From Acidobacteriota bacterium (lineage in GTDB: Bacteria > Acidobacteriota > Terriglobia > Terriglobales > Acidobacteriaceae), in assembly GCA_021780315.1 (NCBI GenBank), contig JAJXYY010000033.1, positions 345,497 to 409,496 on the forward strand: a DNA stretch of 64,000 nucleotides, written 5' to 3'. Both the position numbers and the translations under genes were made by a program. Below, piece after piece: positions 14,755 through 45,597 of the stretch; the first letter of the stretch is position 1, and every line of letters begins with the position of its first letter. The notes under the pieces are model-generated. The model saw only the letters and a program-made list of their open reading frames with translations. It did no database searches and was not told where the DNA came from.

Positions 14755-15552
14755 ATGAAGAACATCGCTGTACTTATTGCCGCTGGCATGTTGTCTTTCT
14801 CTGCCACTTCCCTGCTAGCCAACCCCATCGGTCTCGGATCCGCGAACACCTTCGCCGTCCTCGGCGCGTCCACCGTCACCAACACCGGCAATACCGTTCT
14901 CAACGGAAACCTCGGATTGAGCCCCGGCTCCTCCATCACCGGCTTCCCCCCCGGAACCGTGAACGGAACCACCTACATCAACGATGGCGTAGCCATGCAG
15001 GCGCAGACCGATGCCCTCACCTGGTACAACTTCCTCGCCGCCATGTCTTCCACCAGCAGCCTCACCGGACAAGACCTCGGAGGGCTGACCCTAACACCCG
15101 GCGTCTACTCCTTCGCCTCCTCCGCCCAGCTCACCGGACCTCTCACCCTCAACTTCTCCGGCCTCAACAACGCCAACATGGTCTTCCAGATCGGCAGCAC
15201 GCTCACCACAGCCAGCGCCGCCAGCATCAACATCATCAATCCCGGCCTCAATGACAACATCTACTGGCAGGTAGGTAGCTCCGCCACCCTCGGCACAACC
15301 TCCGCATTCCAAGGCAACATCCTCGCCGCACAAAGCATAACGCTCAACAACAGCGCCACCATCAACTGCGGCAGTGCTATCGCGCTCAACGGTGCCGTCA
15401 CCTTGGACAACAACACCATCGGCACCTGTTCCAACGCAGCCAACTCAGGTCCGGGAGCCATCAGCGCCGTACCCGAACCAGGCACCTTTGGCCTACTGGC
15501 AACCGGCATTCTCGGAGCAGCCGGAGCCATGCGCCGCCGCTTCCTCGCCTAA
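14755..15552 (+). CDS. Ice-binding-like DUF3494 protein with PEP-CTERM anchor
   Basis: 265 residues. A signal peptide ([19 protein letters not shown]) precedes a DUF3494 domain at about 25-230: [26 protein letters not shown]-type sequence ([16 protein letters not shown]), [10 protein letters not shown] and [18 protein letters not shown]3494 proteins form beta-solenoids, and many bind ice or act as adhesins. The C-terminus is a PEP-CTERM signal: [16 protein letters not shown] followed by RRR. An exosortase is expected to process it at the envelope, but none lies in this window. It is probably transcribed alone. Confidence 0.93.
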
Positions 15553-21495: not shown

Positions 21496-22089
21496 CTATC
21501 CAACCAGCCGGCGCCGAACCGCCCCAAACACGCCCAGCAGACCCGTCGCCATCAAGCCGAGACTACCCGGCTCCGGAACCGCCGACACCGGCGCAATCGA
21601 CGTGTAATCGAACTCAGCCGTGCCCCCGCCAAACTTCGGATCGCCCGCAAACGTCAAAAATCCGGCATTCCCACCAAACGCCGCATCGTACCCGTAACCA
21701 TACGTCACATTCGAAAACCCAGTGGCATTCACCACGTTGTATCCCGTGATGTAGGGACTATAGAAACGCGCAGTAAACGGAGTCTGACCGCAACCCGCAC
21801 CAACGCACGTGTCCGTCAGCAGCACGGTTGTCCCCGTAAAGTCGACCGTCAACAGATCCTCGTGATTCGTCGCGGCAAACTCGATCCCCGGCCCAATCAC
21901 CACCGTGCCATTCGTCATACTGTTCCCATAACCGGGCGGCACTGCCCCATTCGCACTGTCAAAGTAATTTGTCGTTCCGGAGGTCGTCAGTATCCCCTCC
22001 ACCGACAACCCAATACCATCGGCCCAGATCGGCCCCGTTGAGACACCTAAAAACACCACTCCCAATACCGCCGCAAACCGCTTCATCAT
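21496..22089 (-). CDS. PEP-CTERM sorted exported protein
   Basis: 197 residues. The signal peptide (FAAVLGVVFLGVSTGPIWA) is followed by a beta-rich mature region with YFDSANGAVPPGYG, an internal DTCVGAGCG disulfide-like pair and YGYGYDAAFGG. The C-terminal tripartite signal is VPEPGSLGLMATGLLG then RRR. It would be an exosortase substrate displayed at or secreted through the envelope; the molecular role is unknown. The GGGGAGAG Shine-Dalgarno lies just upstream of two adjacent ATG codons at 22089 and 22086. Confidence 0.92.
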   Translation of the reverse strand: MMKRFAAVLGVVFLGVSTGPIWADGIGLSVEGILTTSGTTNYFDSANGAVPPGYGNSMTNGTVVIGPGIEFAATNHEDLLTVDFTGTTVLLTDTCVGAGCGQTPFTARFYSPYITGYNVVNATGFSNVTYGYGYDAAFGGNAGFLTFAGDPKFGGGTAEFDYTSIAPVSAVPEPGSLGLMATGLLGVFGAVRRRLVG

Positions 22090-40641: not shown

Positions 40642-41307
40642 ATGCGTCTCACTCAAATGACCCGACTCACCCTCGCCGCCGCCCTCCTCCTCACCCTGCC
40701 TGCCGTCGCGCAGTTCTCCGCGCCGCCCAACACCGGCAACCGCTTCAAAGATACCTCCATGGTCAAGCCACCCGCCGGTGCCAAGGTCGCCATCTACGAG
40801 TTCGAAGACCTCGAATGCCCCGCCTGCGCCCACGCCTTCCCCATCGTCCACTCCGCCGTCGAACACTACAAAATCCCCCTCGTCCGCCACGACTTCCCCC
40901 TCAACATGCACATCTGGAGCCGCGACGCCGCCGTCATCGCTCGCTACATCCAGGACAAAATCTCGCCCCAACTCGCCGAAGACTACCGCCGAGCCGTCTT
41001 CGCCAGCCAGACCGCCATCTCCTCCAAGGAAGACCTCCAGAACTTCTCCCAGAAGTTCTTCCAGTCCCACGGACACCCCATGCCATTCGTCATCGACCCC
41101 TCCGGCCTCTTCAGCGCCGAAGTCCAGGCCGACTATACCCTCGGAGAACGCATCGGACTCTCCCAGACCCCCACCATCTTCGTCGTCACCCAGAAAAACT
41201 GGGTCCAAGTCACCGACATCACCTACCTCTACCAGACAATCGACGCAGCACTCGCCCAGGTCAGCACCCCAACTCCCACCACCACCAAATCCGCCAAAAA
41301 GAAATAG
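40642..41307 (+). CDS. Secreted DsbA/DsbC-like thioredoxin-fold protein
   Basis: 221 residues. A signal peptide (LTLAAALLLTLPAVAQ) is followed by a thioredoxin domain with the active site ECPACAHAFP (CPAC) and the cis-Pro segment LSQTPTIFVV. The helical insert between them and the KVAIYEFEDLECP strand match the DSBA-like thioredoxin_4 family. It probably catalyses or isomerises disulfide bonds in the periplasm. The tail is Thr/Lys-rich. A strong terminator follows. Confidence 0.93.
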   Translation: MRLTQMTRLTLAAALLLTLPAVAQFSAPPNTGNRFKDTSMVKPPAGAKVAIYEFEDLECPACAHAFPIVHSAVEHYKIPLVRHDFPLNMHIWSRDAAVIARYIQDKISPQLAEDYRRAVFASQTAISSKEDLQNFSQKFFQSHGHPMPFVIDPSGLFSAEVQADYTLGERIGLSQTPTIFVVTQKNWVQVTDITYLYQTIDAALAQVSTPTPTTTKSAKKK

Positions 41308-41331
41308 CCCCACCCAACCTCCGCACCACCC

Positions 41332-41358
41332 ATGAGCCCCTCCACAGGGGCTCATTTT
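41332..41358 (+). terminator. Rho-independent terminator after DsbA-like gene
   Basis: ATGAGCCCCT at 41332-41341 is perfectly complementary to AGGGGCTCAT at 41346-41355 with loop CCAC, and a short TTTT run follows. Confidence 0.85.
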
Positions 41359-41410
41359 GCTGCCTGTCCATCCCTCCCCCCTACGCATCAACCCCAAAAA
41401 TACCCGCCCT

Positions 41411-41455
41411 CAACAGTGGAGTTCCCCTTCTTTTCCCAGGGAAAAGAACTTCCCT
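41411..41455 (+). promoter_or_regulatory. Candidate enhancer (UAS) upstream of sigma-54 promoter
   Basis: CAACAGTGG at 41411-41419 is identical to a motif at 43203-43211, and both stand about 140-150 bp before a sigma-54 promoter. CCCAGGGAAAAGAAC and TTCCC sequences follow, similar to the GGGAAAC repeats at the other site. Such a position is where bacterial enhancer-binding proteins usually bind. Confidence 0.5.
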
Positions 41456-41558
41456 TTCCGCCGCATAATCTTGCGCAACACCTCCGCCTTATCCGGGCCA
41501 CCCCTCATAAACAACTCATATATATAGCGTTACGACAAAAATTAACATTCCCACACTT

Positions 41559-41574
41559 TGGCACGCAGCTTGCA
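41559..41574 (+). promoter_or_regulatory. Sigma-54 promoter (-24/-12)
   Basis: TGGCACG-CAGC-TTGCA matches the sigma-54 consensus TGGCACG-N4-TTGCA exactly, with ten bases between GG and GC. Transcription should start near 41585, giving an 85-base leader before the microprotein ATG at 41670. Confidence 0.85.
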
Positions 41575-41669
41575 ATAGGTACAGCAACGAAGCATGCGCC
41601 CAGGCTAGGGCGTGCCACTCCATCCGGACTCTTGTCCGCTCAACCCTTTTTCGACCTCAGGAGGCCGAT

Positions 41670-41762
41670 ATGTACGTCTTGTTCACCCCTGCTTGCCTTG
41701 CTCTTCTCATCATTGGCTACATCCAGCTCCGCGAACAGTTCCGCTTGACCCAGGAACAGTAG
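41670..41762 (+). CDS. 30-residue membrane microprotein under sigma-54 control
   Basis: ATG 41670 is preceded by CAGGAGG with a 5-base gap. The product is one hydrophobic helix of about 17 residues (VLFTPACLALLIIGYIQ) followed by a polar, charged tail (LREQFRLTQEQ). Both the Shine-Dalgarno site and the exact sigma-54 promoter 96 bp upstream argue that this is a real gene, and a hairpin at 41831-41859 closes the unit. It has one Cys and no known family. It could be a small regulator or stabiliser of an envelope complex; this is not shown by sequence. Confidence 0.72.
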   Translation: MYVLFTPACLALLIIGYIQLREQFRLTQEQ

Positions 41763-41830
41763 CCCCCAACAGCAGACCAGCCTGCTGCCCCGCCGCAGCC
41801 GCTCCGTCCGCTCACCCAGAACCGTCAACA

Positions 41831-41859
41831 GGCAGACCGCCCCAATGGCGATCTGCCTG
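41831..41859 (+). terminator. Hairpin terminator of microprotein transcript
   Basis: AGGCAGACCGCC at 41831-41842 pairs with GGCGATCTGCCT at 41848-41859 (one G-T pair) around loop CCAAT. It lies 69 bp after the microprotein stop and just before the convergent GH105 gene. Confidence 0.75.
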
Positions 41860-41890
41860 TCCATCCGGCTCTTCTTCTGTCTCGACTCTG

Positions 41891-42988
41891 CTACTTGCCA
41901 GCACCGTCCCGCAACAGCGCACTCGCAGCCCACAACACCGGTGCCTGCCCATGGAAGTCGCCCGTCCGCCGCTTCCGGGCATAGTAGTACGCCATATCGT
42001 CCTTCTTGCCCGTGCCCTCACACACCTGCGTTACATCGTGGTTCTGGTCCACATAACCCACCACCGCAATCCACGACTTCCGCGCCGCTGGACCATACGT
42101 CGCCGCATCCAGCCACCCATGCTTTACCCCCGTAATCAGTGCAAAGCTGAACATCGCCGAACTCGAACTCTCCGGCCACGCATCATCCTTGTCGATCAAC
42201 TCCCGCCACATCCCATCCTTGCCCTGGTACTGCAGCAGCGAACTCATCATCAGCTTGTAACCCTTCATGATCCGCGCCCGGTCCGGATGCGACTCCGGCA
42301 ACTCGCTCAGCATCTCCGCCATCCCCGCCGCCACCCACCCATCCCCGCGGCCCCAGAAGTACTTCACATCCGGAGCGTGATAAAACAAGCCATTCGGCTG
42401 CTGTAGCTTGTCCAGATACGACACCATCTCCTTCGCATCCCGGTCCAGATACTTCTTATCCCCTGTCGCCCGGTACGCCTCCAGTTGCAGCATCGTCAGC
42501 ATATACATGTCGTCGATCCAGTACCGCGTCTCCGCCGACAAGCCATCCGCCTGCGGATTCTCCCACTGCCGGTCCGCCCAGCCCTTGCCCACCGCCAGAA
42601 AACGCGGATCCTTCGTCTGAATCGCAATCTCCAACGGCACCACCCCAAAGATCGAGTCATCCACATGGTGCCGCAGCGGAGTACGATCCGCCTCCGCCCC
42701 ACCCGGCATCAACGGCTCAAACTTCTTGATCAACTCATCCCGCAACACATCGTCATGCGTCAGCTTCGCAAACGTCAACGCCCCATACCACGTGCACACC
42801 TCCGAGTAGTGGATCGTCTTCGTATACTGGTGCGGACTCGTCACAAAGTGCTCCGCCAGAGCCTTCCCCACCTCCTGCGGAGACGTCCCCGCAGGCCAGT
42901 TGTTCAAATCCCCCGACTGCGCCACGCCCGCCACCGTGCCCGCCAACAACATCGCGCCACATACCGCCCATCCACTTACTGTCTTCAC
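41891..42988 (-). CDS. Exported glycoside hydrolase family 88/105
   Basis: 365 residues. A signal peptide (AMLLAGTVAGVAQS) leads into an (alpha/alpha)6-barrel hydrolase. Motifs are YWIDDMYMLTMLQLEAY (catalytic Asp, as in YteR/GH105), FYHAPDVKYFWGRGDGWVAAGMAEML, and PESSSSAMFSFALITGVKHGWLD. GH105 enzymes hydrate the unsaturated galacturonyl residue released by pectate or rhamnogalacturonan lyases, so a role in pectin or rhamnogalacturonan use is likely. No lyase gene is adjacent. Confidence 0.93.
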   Translation of the reverse strand: MKTVSGWAVCGAMLLAGTVAGVAQSGDLNNWPAGTSPQEVGKALAEHFVTSPHQYTKTIHYSEVCTWYGALTFAKLTHDDVLRDELIKKFEPLMPGGAEADRTPLRHHVDDSIFGVVPLEIAIQTKDPRFLAVGKGWADRQWENPQADGLSAETRYWIDDMYMLTMLQLEAYRATGDKKYLDRDAKEMVSYLDKLQQPNGLFYHAPDVKYFWGRGDGWVAAGMAEMLSELPESHPDRARIMKGYKLMMSSLLQYQGKDGMWRELIDKDDAWPESSSSAMFSFALITGVKHGWLDAATYGPAARKSWIAVVGYVDQNHDVTQVCEGTGKKDDMAYYYARKRRTGDFHGQAPVLWAASALLRDGAGK

Positions 42989-43412
42989 GTAGTCTTCTCC
43001 ATCTCAATCGAAATTTGCCCACCCCAGTCCCGCAATCCAGCCCAGCGGCCAGCTCCCCGGAACTTCAGCACGGCATCCAAACCCAATCTCAAAGCCTAAA
43101 AATCTTAGCCCCCCTGCCATCGACACGCCAGCTTCAAATCAGAAATAAATCCTCCCCGAACAAAATCCACCATCAGGGAAACTCCCTTCCACTCTGTTTC
43201 CCCAACAGTGGCAAACATCTTCCCTCAACATGGGAAACATCGGCACACCTCTGCATCCTGCCCGCTCTCGATCCCAACTCAAATCACACCCATCACAACA
43301 TCTCTAATCAATTCAATAACTTACAATTTGTACGCAATTTTTTGCGCAAATCGAGCACTTTGGTACTCCCCTTGCTCCTACCCCCAGCAACAACATCACT
43401 GGAGGTAACACC
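42989..43412 (+). promoter_or_regulatory. Sigma-54 control region of PEP-CTERM gene: UAS repeats
   Basis: Two near-direct repeats, CAACAGTGGCAAACATC (43203-43219) and CAACATGGGAAACATC (43226-43241), and a looser third, CATCAGGGAAAC (starting about 43172), lie 120-190 bp before the promoter at 43361. This arrangement is like an enhancer for a sigma-54 activator. The rest of the interval to the GH105 start has no gene. Confidence 0.55.
43361..43376 (+). promoter_or_regulatory. Sigma-54 promoter of PEP-CTERM gene
   Basis: TGGTACT-CCCC-TTGCT keeps the invariant GG and GC ten bases apart and differs from the consensus at only a few less conserved bases. It ends 36 bp before the TTG start at 43413, so the leader would be about 25 bases. 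Confidence 0.78.
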
Positions 43413-43952
43413 TTGAAGAACTTTGTCGCACTGCTCGCCCTCTCTGCCGCCGCCCTCACCGCCACCACCGCCCACGCGTCCACCATGGATGCCTTCACCC
43501 TCACCACCAGCACCGACACCTACACCTTCTCCCTGCCTGCCAGCCCCTCCACCAGCTTCAATAACGCCGGCGACTTCACCCTACAGCCCGTCTCCATCAG
43601 CGACAACGGAAAAACCCAGAACGGCGCCGTCGAGTTCTTCAGCAGCAATGACCTTGGCGGGATCTCTATCACCTTCGGCCAAAACAATCCCGTCAACGAC
43701 ATCGGCAGCCAACTCTTCACCATAAGCAAGGGTGTGCCCACCTTCACACTCGGCACCTTCACCCTTACCCCCCTCAATGGCGGCGGTGGTGACAACTACT
43801 GGGGCGACAACGGTTGCGTCAGCAACAACGACTACCTCACCATCACCCAGATCCCCAACGCCTCCCCCGTCCCGGAACCCTCCTCCATCGCCTTCCTCTC
43901 CACCGGCCTCCTCGCCGCGGCCGGAACCATCCGCCGCCGCTTCAGCCGCTAA
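43413..43952 (+). CDS. PEP-CTERM exported protein, paralogue 1
   Basis: 179 residues. Translation starts at TTG 43413, with GGAGGT six bases upstream. The signal peptide (FVALLALSAAALTATTAHAS) is followed by a short beta-rich domain with DAFTLTTSTDTYTFSLPASP and GAVEFFSSNDLGGISI. The C-terminal signal is VPEPSSIAFLSTGLLA followed by RRR. It is transcribed from an apparent sigma-54 promoter. The next gene encodes a clear paralogue (identical PEPSSIAFLSTGLLAA tail and similar mature domain). Function is unknown; it may be part of extracellular matrix. Confidence 0.92.
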   Translation: MKNFVALLALSAAALTATTAHASTMDAFTLTTSTDTYTFSLPASPSTSFNNAGDFTLQPVSISDNGKTQNGAVEFFSSNDLGGISITFGQNNPVNDIGSQLFTISKGVPTFTLGTFTLTPLNGGGGDNYWGDNGCVSNNDYLTITQIPNASPVPEPSSIAFLSTGLLAAAGTIRRRFSR

Positions 43953-44238
43953 CCCAACTCAATCCCCCCGGGGAGGAGATGCCTCCAGTCCTCCCCGCCC
44001 ACCTCCCCATCTCCAGCACAAAACCAGCATCAGCCATTCTTTAAACCAGTAACTGCACCACAGAATTAACGTGAAACTCAGCAAGTCAGCCGTTACAATC
44101 ACCTTGGTAACGCTGCTCCACTGGTACTCTCGCCTTCTAAAAGTCTGCCTGGCCGCACCGGAAACACACCTCGCCCCAGATCCGCACCCACCGTGCGCAC
44201 TCGGGCGCTGCGCAGAATTTATTATTCGGAGGAGTCCC

Positions 44239-44790
44239 TTGAACAAAAACTACATTTCCCTGCTCACCCTGGCTGCTGGTCTTCTCTCCAGCCTCGCCAC
44301 CGCTCACGCCTCACCCTTGGACGCCAACTTCACCCTCAGCGCCGGCTCCGACCACTACCAGTTCACCGTCCCGGCCAACCCCACCCCCAGCGCCACCAAT
44401 CTCTCCTGCCCTGACAGCAACATGGGTGACTTCTGCCTCTTCAACATCAACATCACCAAAAATAACGTCACCTCCGCCGGCACCATCGAGTTCTTCACCA
44501 CCGCCGCATTCGGCGGCTTCGAGATCTTCCAGAACGGCATCTCCGAACTCAGTGCCTCTGGCGGACAGCTATTTACCGGCACCGTCTTCAACCCCACCAT
44601 CAACACCAATCCCTTCAGCTTCAGCCTCATGGGATACGTCAACCCGCCAAACTGCGCCAAAACCAGCAACTGCCGGACCGTCGACCAGAGCGACATCACA
44701 GCCGTCGTACCCGAACCCTCCTCCATCGCCTTCCTCTCCACCGGCCTCCTCGCCGCCGTTGGAACCCTGCGCCGCCGCATCAGTCGCTAA
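44239..44790 (+). CDS. PEP-CTERM exported protein, paralogue 2
   Basis: 183 residues from TTG 44239, with CGGAGGAG four bases upstream. The frame stays open further upstream, but that extension has no ribosome site and would bury the signal peptide (LLTLAAGLLSSLATAHAS). The mature domain has DANFTLSAGSDHYQFTVPANP and GTIEFFTTAAFGGFEIF, matching paralogue 1, plus four extra Cys. The tail VPEPSSIAFLSTGLLAA is identical to its neighbour's. A TGGTACT sequence upstream (around 44120) lacks the correct -12 spacing, so this copy may have lost sigma-54 control. Confidence 0.9.
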   Translation: MNKNYISLLTLAAGLLSSLATAHASPLDANFTLSAGSDHYQFTVPANPTPSATNLSCPDSNMGDFCLFNINITKNNVTSAGTIEFFTTAAFGGFEIFQNGISELSASGGQLFTGTVFNPTINTNPFSFSLMGYVNPPNCAKTSNCRTVDQSDITAVVPEPSSIAFLSTGLLAAVGTLRRRISR

Positions 44791-44841
44791 GCCCACCAGA
44801 CAGCAGCCAAGGGAGAGGTCCCATCCTCTCCCCACCATCCC

Positions 44842-45597
44842 TCACCGAGCCACAAACACCAGAAAATAATCCTGCCCGTCAGCCTTCGTAAAGTCGTACT
44901 GCCCCACCAGCCGATACCCTGCCTGCAGCATCTCCCCCATCACCACTCCCATATCCACCCCGTGGTCCGCACCATTGCCGTTCCGGTCGATGATCCCCAC
45001 CTTCGCCCCCGGCCGCAGCCCTGCCCGCACCTTCGTCATCACCGCCACCGGATGCGAAATCTCGTGGTACACCTTCAGCAACAGCACCGCATCCACGCTC
45101 CCCGGCGGCAGCGATGGATCATCCGGACTCCCCAGCACGCACCGCACATTGGTCAGTCCCTCACGCTTCGCCCGCGCCTCCACATACGTCACCGCATTCG
45201 GATTGATGTCCTCGGCATACACCCGCCCCCCAGGCCCCACCCGCCGCGCCGCTCGCGCCGTAAACCAACCGGACCCCGCACCCAGGTCTGCCACACTCTT
45301 CCCCACACTGATCCCCAACAGGTCCATCACCCGCCCTACCTGAAGCTTCTTGTCCCGGTCCGGATAATCAAAGATCGACAAGTCCCCCGCATACGGAGCA
45401 CTCGTAGCCCGTTGCGTCCCGCCACTCTTCTGCTCAGGAAAGGGAAACGCCAGTGCCGCAGGTTGCTGGGCACCTCCAACTGCTTGTGCTGCCGCAGGCG
45501 GTGTCGCAGGTGGAACAGTCGTCTGCGCACCCGCACCCAAACCCCCAACCAGACAAACCGCCAACACCCGTAGCGTAATCGTTCCCCGAAGACTCAT
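44842..45597 (-). CDS. Exported SAM-dependent methyltransferase
   Basis: 251 residues from ATG 45597. A signal peptide (ITLRVLAVCLVGGLGAGAQT) and a Pro/Ala linker precede a class I methyltransferase domain. It has motif I VADLGAGSGWFTARAAR, then GRVYAEDINPNAVTYV and VDAVLLLKVYHEISHP. An exported methyltransferase is unusual but is a recurring acidobacterial family. Substrate unknown. A longer frame reaches 45717, but only 45597 puts the signal at the N-terminus. It lies 73 bp downstream of the radical SAM gene on the same strand. Confidence 0.88.
   Translation of the reverse strand: MSLRGTITLRVLAVCLVGGLGAGAQTTVPPATPPAAAQAVGGAQQPAALAFPFPEQKSGGTQRATSAPYAGDLSIFDYPDRDKKLQVGRVMDLLGISVGKSVADLGAGSGWFTARAARRVGPGGRVYAEDINPNAVTYVEARAKREGLTNVRCVLGSPDDPSLPPGSVDAVLLLKVYHEISHPVAVMTKVRAGLRPGAKVGIIDRNGNGADHGVDMGVVMGEMLQAGYRLVGQYDFTKADGQDYFLVFVAR

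Follow-up and report, generated by a model that had tools for sequence, protein, structure and literature searches.

The microprotein gene and its family

The window, by which we mean the whole stretch of 64,000 nucleotides that was analysed, contains a 30-codon reading frame which begins with ATG 41670, ends at 41762 and sits 95 bp past a sigma-54 element (Table 1). The initial annotation had described a membrane microprotein gene with a CAGGAGG sequence in front of the ATG, one hydrophobic helix and a stable hairpin behind it, and all of these were found. CAGGAGG occupies positions 41658–41664, 5 nt 5' of the ATG, and an AGGAGG-like sequence precedes the ORF in most relatives. AlphaFold predicts a single helix spanning residues 5–29 of the window microprotein, with a mean pLDDT of 84.7. 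The C-terminal tails are mostly net positive across the family, the window's own member being net zero, and this would favour a C-terminus in the cytoplasm. No Pfam or NCBIfam family matched any of three members searched, the NCBIfam search extending to E-values of 10; the PEP-CTERM signature TIGR02595 (C-terminal PEP motif, helix and arginine cluster) was accordingly not found in the microprotein. The hairpin past the ORF is real: the 123-nt region around it folds at -44.4 kcal/mol (z -5.2), and 0 of 200 shuffles were equally stable. It possesses a weak rather than a proper T-run and is absent from the output of the terminator scan, and the convergent gene beyond it codes for a glycoside hydrolase (PF07470).

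Table 1. Features of the microprotein and PEP-CTERM region (window coordinates)
Feature	Position	Strand	Basis or remark
Putative enhancer (activator) dyad GGAAAAGAACTTCC	41440..41453		119 bp from dyad start to -24 element start
Sigma-54 -24/-12 element TGGCACG-N4-TTGCA, TGGCACGCAGCTTGCA	41559..41574	+	Exact consensus
Predicted 5' leader: small hairpin and AGGAGG Shine-Dalgarno (41659–41664)	41585..41669	+	Sequence; putative transcript start
30-aa membrane microprotein gene, encoding MYVLFTPACLALLIIGYIQLREQFRLTQEQ	41670..41762	+	Homologues, pN/pS, helix 5–29
Strong hairpin, possibly transcript end (weak T-run)	about 41828..41860	+	Between convergent genes
Two dyads, GGAAACTCCCTTCC (43177) and GGCAAACATCTTCC (43210)	43177..43223		Upstream of PEP-CTERM gene; 43177 is the exact pattern
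Sigma-54-like element TGGTACTCCCCTTGCT	43361..43376	+	52 bp before PEP-CTERM start; 2 mismatches; score 13.6 of 14.6
PEP-CTERM protein gene, TTG start, 179 aa	43413..43952	+	TIGR02595 18.8 bits, cut-off 16
Second PEP-CTERM protein gene	44071..44790	+	TIGR02595 19.2 bits, cut-off 16

Searching with the peptide gave matches at E<=0.05 in 35 of 62 congeneric genomes (Edaphobacter/Granulicella), and a profile of 31 members matched 36 of the 62 at E<=0.001, every match starting at residue 1; this number includes the genome under study and is strictly 35, the copies in genome G035 being doubtful. The same type of promoter and an ORF with conserved codons, which the initial annotation had suggested looking for in homologous genomes, were recovered. 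The ORF is not broken in the nearest relative, G046, in which 29 of 30 residues and the whole promoter 16-mer are identical, and 34 further genomes carry homologous frames without internal stops (G035 weakly). Members are mostly of 28–32 residues and single-pass form, with the consensus MYLLFxPAxxAVxVIGxIQLRDQF, and M1, P7 and I15 are invariant in the 35 that were aligned. Among 19 non-overlapping pairs of family members, five of which are tandem copies inside one genome, pS was 0.366 and pN 0.074 (pN/pS 0.20). Judged by its sequence, the ORF is a real coding gene of a conserved family.

Sigma-54-dependent sRNAs exist, and a short stand-alone unit ahead of a strong hairpin would also suit a transcript which acts mainly as a regulatory RNA, the ORF being secondary. 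We consider this highly improbable, since the 192 substitutions in the 19 pairs are distributed 46/23/123 over codon positions 1/2/3, the leader folds no better than its shuffles (z -0.14), and the peptide is kept although leaders differ between genomes.

Tandem copies of the gene occur in five genomes (G013, G015, G024, G026 and G034). These copies, and a hydrophobic product of about 30 residues, are what one might expect of a stress-induced peptide resembling the type I toxins TisB, Ldr and Ibs. Such a role appears improbable given the strong purifying selection and a position which is kept in many genomes; moreover, 72,556 plasmid records contained no match to the microprotein, viral contigs none to the family pattern, and a consensus scan of the opposite strand from 41300 to 45000 no sigma-70-like promoter.

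The named records with the gene (18 loci) bear the labels Edaphobacter, Granulicella, Acidobacteriaceae or unassigned Acidobacteriota. Outside the genus, searches covering two sets from the taxonomic family (300 and 398 genomes) and one from the phylum (396) yielded only partial matches at background level (E 0.001 or higher), mostly within longer frames. The microprotein family, like the dyad regulon described below, looks new, the exosortase/PEP-CTERM system to which they would belong being already known. Small membrane-protein modulators such as KdpF, CydX, AcrZ and MgtS have about 30–50 residues and one helix, and are easily missed by annotation. The microprotein is likewise short and single-helical; unlike them, it belongs to a family of which three members had no Pfam or NCBIfam match and which was found in one genus only.

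Genome G035 carries two weak homologues with another tail, L115 (about 729, reverse strand; MYVLFAPSALAFVLIAITQ...) and L116 (2089; MYILFAPSALAFVLIAATQ...), directly after ssb-like genes and with no convincing sigma-54 site. They are doubtful homologues, and may be either remote members of the family or small proteins of a different one.

Sigma-54 promoters and the GGAA-N6-TTCC dyad

The full-consensus sigma-54 site that had been claimed at 41559 is borne out. TGGCACGCAGCTTGCA fits TGGCACG-N4-TTGCW exactly, with both the GG and GC cores; no other exact match exists in the window, and none turned up in 100 dinucleotide shuffles. Using a fixed score (maximum 14.6, threshold 12.2, within 250 bp), a -24/-12 site was located before 29 of 45 family members vs 10 of 303 control genes, the 29 including many close relatives, one site at a doubtful G035 copy and one (G034) without the GC core. 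In G013, G015 and G024 no such site precedes the tandem copies farther downstream, as would be expected if the promoter of the first copy is shared, and the best sites of G001 and G023 are more distant from the ATG (302 and 402 bp upstream, respectively). A sigma-54-type promoter is thus found across the family, and from these elements we infer that the gene would depend upon RpoN.

Word counts upstream of 43 non-redundant promoters of the family and of PEP-CTERM genes revealed GGGAAAA in 12 of them vs 4 of 318 controls, and inspection revealed the dyad GGAA-N6-TTCC. It occurs in 11 of 50 family/PEP-CTERM promoters vs 6 of 302 controls and is spacing-specific, N5 being present in 2 of the 50 and other spacings in 0–1. 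To obtain the set of 50, redundancy was removed from 63 promoters, which left 51 (that of G046 standing in for the window's own), and one from G035 was then dropped. Since the dyad was first noticed in these promoters, 41440 included, the 11/50 measures consistency, and because the set itself had suggested the pattern, the exosortase loci were taken for an independent test. In 21 genomes, 11 carriers of the microprotein and 10 non-carriers, the exosortase-to-wza stretches contained 10 dyads in 16,905 bp vs 3 in the remaining 386,101 bp (0.13 expected, Poisson p 4e-16), and other spacings gave 0–2; the loci, here as elsewhere, are related, so that the counts are not independent events. Carriers and non-carriers contribute five each of the ten dyads, which start 85–110 bp before the best -24/-12-like element facing the exosortase. 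A one-mismatch dyad is present in five more genomes, 88–99 bp before the best element in four of these, the genome under study included; its own exosortase operon possesses a degenerate dyad only, together with a weaker -24/-12 element (12.0). Over all PEP-CTERM loci the dyad is not enriched (3/45 vs 8/300, p 0.16).

A second inverted repeat, TTGCC...GGCAA, lies upstream in the promoters of G010, G057, G033 and G018 and of a PEP-CTERM gene of G030, and is possibly a variant of the dyad.

Within the 64-kb window GGAA-N6-TTCC occurs three times, 0.61 being expected. A matrix built from the ten exosortase-locus dyads of other genomes ranked 41440 (17.1 bits), 43210 (10.9) and 43177 (8.9) highest in the window, the first of these preceding the microprotein and the other two the PEP-CTERM gene at 43413; 43177 and 43210 had played no part in choosing the pattern. 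With a matrix of 14 exosortase-locus dyads, including four one-mismatch sites, and the 97th percentile of the 302 controls as threshold, 28 of the 50 family/PEP-CTERM promoters passed (shuffles: mean 0.43, largest 3), namely 13/24 of the microprotein, 10/11 of adjacent PEP-CTERM genes and 5/15 of other PEP-CTERM genes. Half of the passing matches (14/28) fall between -117 and -121 relative to the -24 element. Of 37 microprotein loci, 27 had their best match inside the 600 bp preceding the microprotein or the PEP-CTERM gene next to it, 2.3 being expected by area; in the other 10 it lay elsewhere. These scans return to the type of promoter in which the dyad was first noticed, and hence attest to consistency rather than supplying independent proof. 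In G046, the closest relative, the dyad is altered at 2 of its 8 fixed bases. Where, in one clade, a PEP-CTERM gene is adjacent, the best dyad stands in front of it, at a distance of about 1 kb from the microprotein; this dyad may be a shared distant enhancer, or the microprotein promoter there may not be so controlled. On sequence grounds, that the microprotein belongs to one likely regulon with the exosortase operon is well supported.

The terminator scan picked up a perfect 9-bp inverted repeat, TTCTTTTCCCAGGGAAAAGAA, at 41428–41448. It overlaps the dyad and more likely belongs to the regulatory region than to a terminator.

PEP-CTERM genes, exosortase loci and candidate activators

Both PEP-CTERM genes listed in Table 1 lie about 2 kb downstream of the microprotein. 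The product of the first also matches PF07589 (19.8, slightly below the cut-off of 20.7), and that of the second has no Pfam match at an E-value of 0.001. Further PEP-CTERM genes are found in the window at about 14755–15552 (+) and about 21496–22089 (-), with no convincing sigma-54 element upstream. Across the genomes, a sigma-54 score of at least 12.2 was recorded for 15 of 46 PEP-CTERM loci, or 14 of 44 when the mis-framed L143 and L235 are omitted. At 15 of 39 microprotein loci, many of them related and therefore representing few independent events, the gene immediately upstream is a PEP-CTERM gene of the same orientation, with its PEP motif 174–223 bp before the microprotein ATG. Locus L106 of G026 contains three microprotein and three related PEP-CTERM genes in about 5 kb, as if co-amplified. 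Of the 39 loci, 26 have an mqnC-like radical SAM gene (CofH_C) within about 8 kb, usually upstream, and a convergent MFS gene often follows. The window, G046 and G013 have a thioredoxin-like and an efflux gene upstream in place of mqnC.

A strong short exosortase (PF09721, E below 1e-60) is encoded by 50 of the 62 genomes, including all 36 microprotein carriers vs 14 of 26 non-carriers (Fisher p 4e-6). At least four PEP-CTERM hits were obtained in 36/36 carriers vs 10/26 non-carriers (Fisher p 2e-8). On a tree of 48 of the 62 genomes the microprotein changes six times and the exosortase four times, an independent-pairs test being without power, and the co-occurrence of the two is not separable from shared ancestry. 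The region behind mqnC was inspected for a hidden copy of the gene, up to 1.5 kb each, and none was present in 22 of the 26 non-carriers, the other four not being readable. The microprotein is optional because 14 exosortase-positive genomes have no such gene; nor does the regulon require it, since five of the ten exosortase dyads are in genomes without the gene.

Such a distribution could also mean that the microprotein is controlled by sigma-54 and acts elsewhere, as a membrane-stress or respiratory/transport protein which merely shares the activator with the exosortase operon; PspG, CydX and KdpF are models for small proteins of these kinds. Besides the 14 exosortase-positive genomes without the gene, the prevalence of mqnC-like neighbours and the absence of an exosortase from the locus maps are in keeping with this reading, and the 28–32 residue single-pass form with its invariant M1, P7 and I15 suits small-subunit modulators. 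We regard it as unlikely: the dyad and promoter type are common to the exosortase operon and PEP-CTERM genes, not one of the 36 carriers is without a strong exosortase, and the family occupies at least two unrelated neighbourhoods.

The exosortase locus of the genome under study is on the same contig, about 230 kb from the microprotein. PrsT (TIGR02917, 361.2 bits, cut-off 312.2), EpsI, exosortase and EpsB were all identified there above the NCBIfam cut-offs, and the layout of exosortase, EpsI, PrsT and Wza-to-EpsB repeats in 20 further loci, one of them cut short. Beside this EPS locus lies a gene for a sigma-54 activator without a receiver domain (L186 17337–18440, minus strand), orthologues of which, 79–91% identical, hold the same place in 11 of the 20 other loci. 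Its product is a candidate activator for the dyad. A role as sole activator is rejected because dyads occur in several loci without an orthologue: none was found in G013, G059, G028, G051, G017, G056, G012 and G043, and G022 has only a 29% match, the loci of G056 and G022 ending at contig ends. PrsR was also considered as activator, and the TIGR02915 cut-off was passed in 0 of the 62 genomes.

Known systems and a proposed role

A PEP-CTERM/EpsH (exosortase) sigma-54 system with PrsR, PrsK and PrsT has been described in Proteobacteria by Haft (2006), with predicted RpoN control of PEP-CTERM genes (PMC1569441). The Edaphobacter/Granulicella genomes have in common with it the exosortase, PrsT and EPS genes, as well as PEP-CTERM genes that are often single units with a -24/-12 promoter and an upstream activator motif. 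Motif 1 of that system, given there for Proteobacteria only, has 17 nt with TTTACA at its 3' end and lies a mean of 63 nt ahead of motif 2 (PMC1569441), whereas the motif found here is the GGAA-N6-TTCC dyad, which mostly starts about 75–130 bp before the -24 element. No microprotein is described for the Haft system in the text consulted (PMC1569441). In Aquincola tertiaricarbonis, RpoN1-dependent transcription of the PEP-CTERM gene pepA was shown (PMC9850573). The mapped pepA promoter is likewise of the -24/-12 type (TGGCAC ... CTGCTT), and the gene lies beside prsT with a terminator behind it; its product is a PEP-CTERM protein (PMC9850573). The microprotein, by contrast, is a membrane peptide of 30 residues and has no PEP motif. 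Neither the family nor the dyad was described among the matches listed in a literature search on PEP-CTERM, sigma-54 and Acidobacteria, and a term search of the main text of PMC7074687 gave no mention of PEP-CTERM, exosortase or RpoN.

We propose that an activator (enhancer-binding protein) bound at dyad 41440, about 119 bp upstream, would turn on the sigma-54 promoter at 41559, and that the short transcript would encode the microprotein, a putative single-pass inner-membrane peptide with a helix at about residues 5–29 and a short charged tail, probably cytoplasmic. We infer both this topology and a common activator for the dyad-bearing promoters. The same layout of dyad and sigma-54 element is seen in many congeneric genomes at the exosortase operon (xrt-epsI-prsT), as well as at a subset of PEP-CTERM genes, including that at 43413, and because of it the microprotein would be co-expressed with the surface system, that is, made when the exosortase/PEP-CTERM/exopolysaccharide surface is built. 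The suggestion of the initial annotation that the product is a small component of an envelope system is to this extent supported, as far as sequence goes.

On balance, the microprotein is probably a sigma-54-controlled, optional inner-membrane accessory of the exosortase/PEP-CTERM/exopolysaccharide system. As to its partner and molecular job, our guess is that it most likely binds and tunes exosortase, EpsI or the EPS export machinery; an enzyme role is unlikely for a single-pass peptide this small. The further claim that it represents a dedicated inner-membrane subunit or modulator of the exosortase/PEP-CTERM system of Edaphobacter/Granulicella, within a GGAA-N6-TTCC sigma-54 regulon of the Acidobacteriota, both previously undescribed, strikes us as plausible, if not quite probable.

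Acidobacteriota are abundant exopolysaccharide-making soil bacteria, and to our knowledge the control and assistance of exosortases are poorly understood. Lying under what appears to be the dyad and promoter type of the exosortase operon, the microprotein gene, which is small and can be deleted, would give experimental access to the system, and the regulon predicted from the dyad is open to direct testing. Sharing of a promoter type can lend functional context even to a gene of 30 codons. The prediction is that the microprotein comes on together with the apparatus which attaches PEP-CTERM proteins to the cell surface, and it is thereby a candidate for a missing part of that apparatus.
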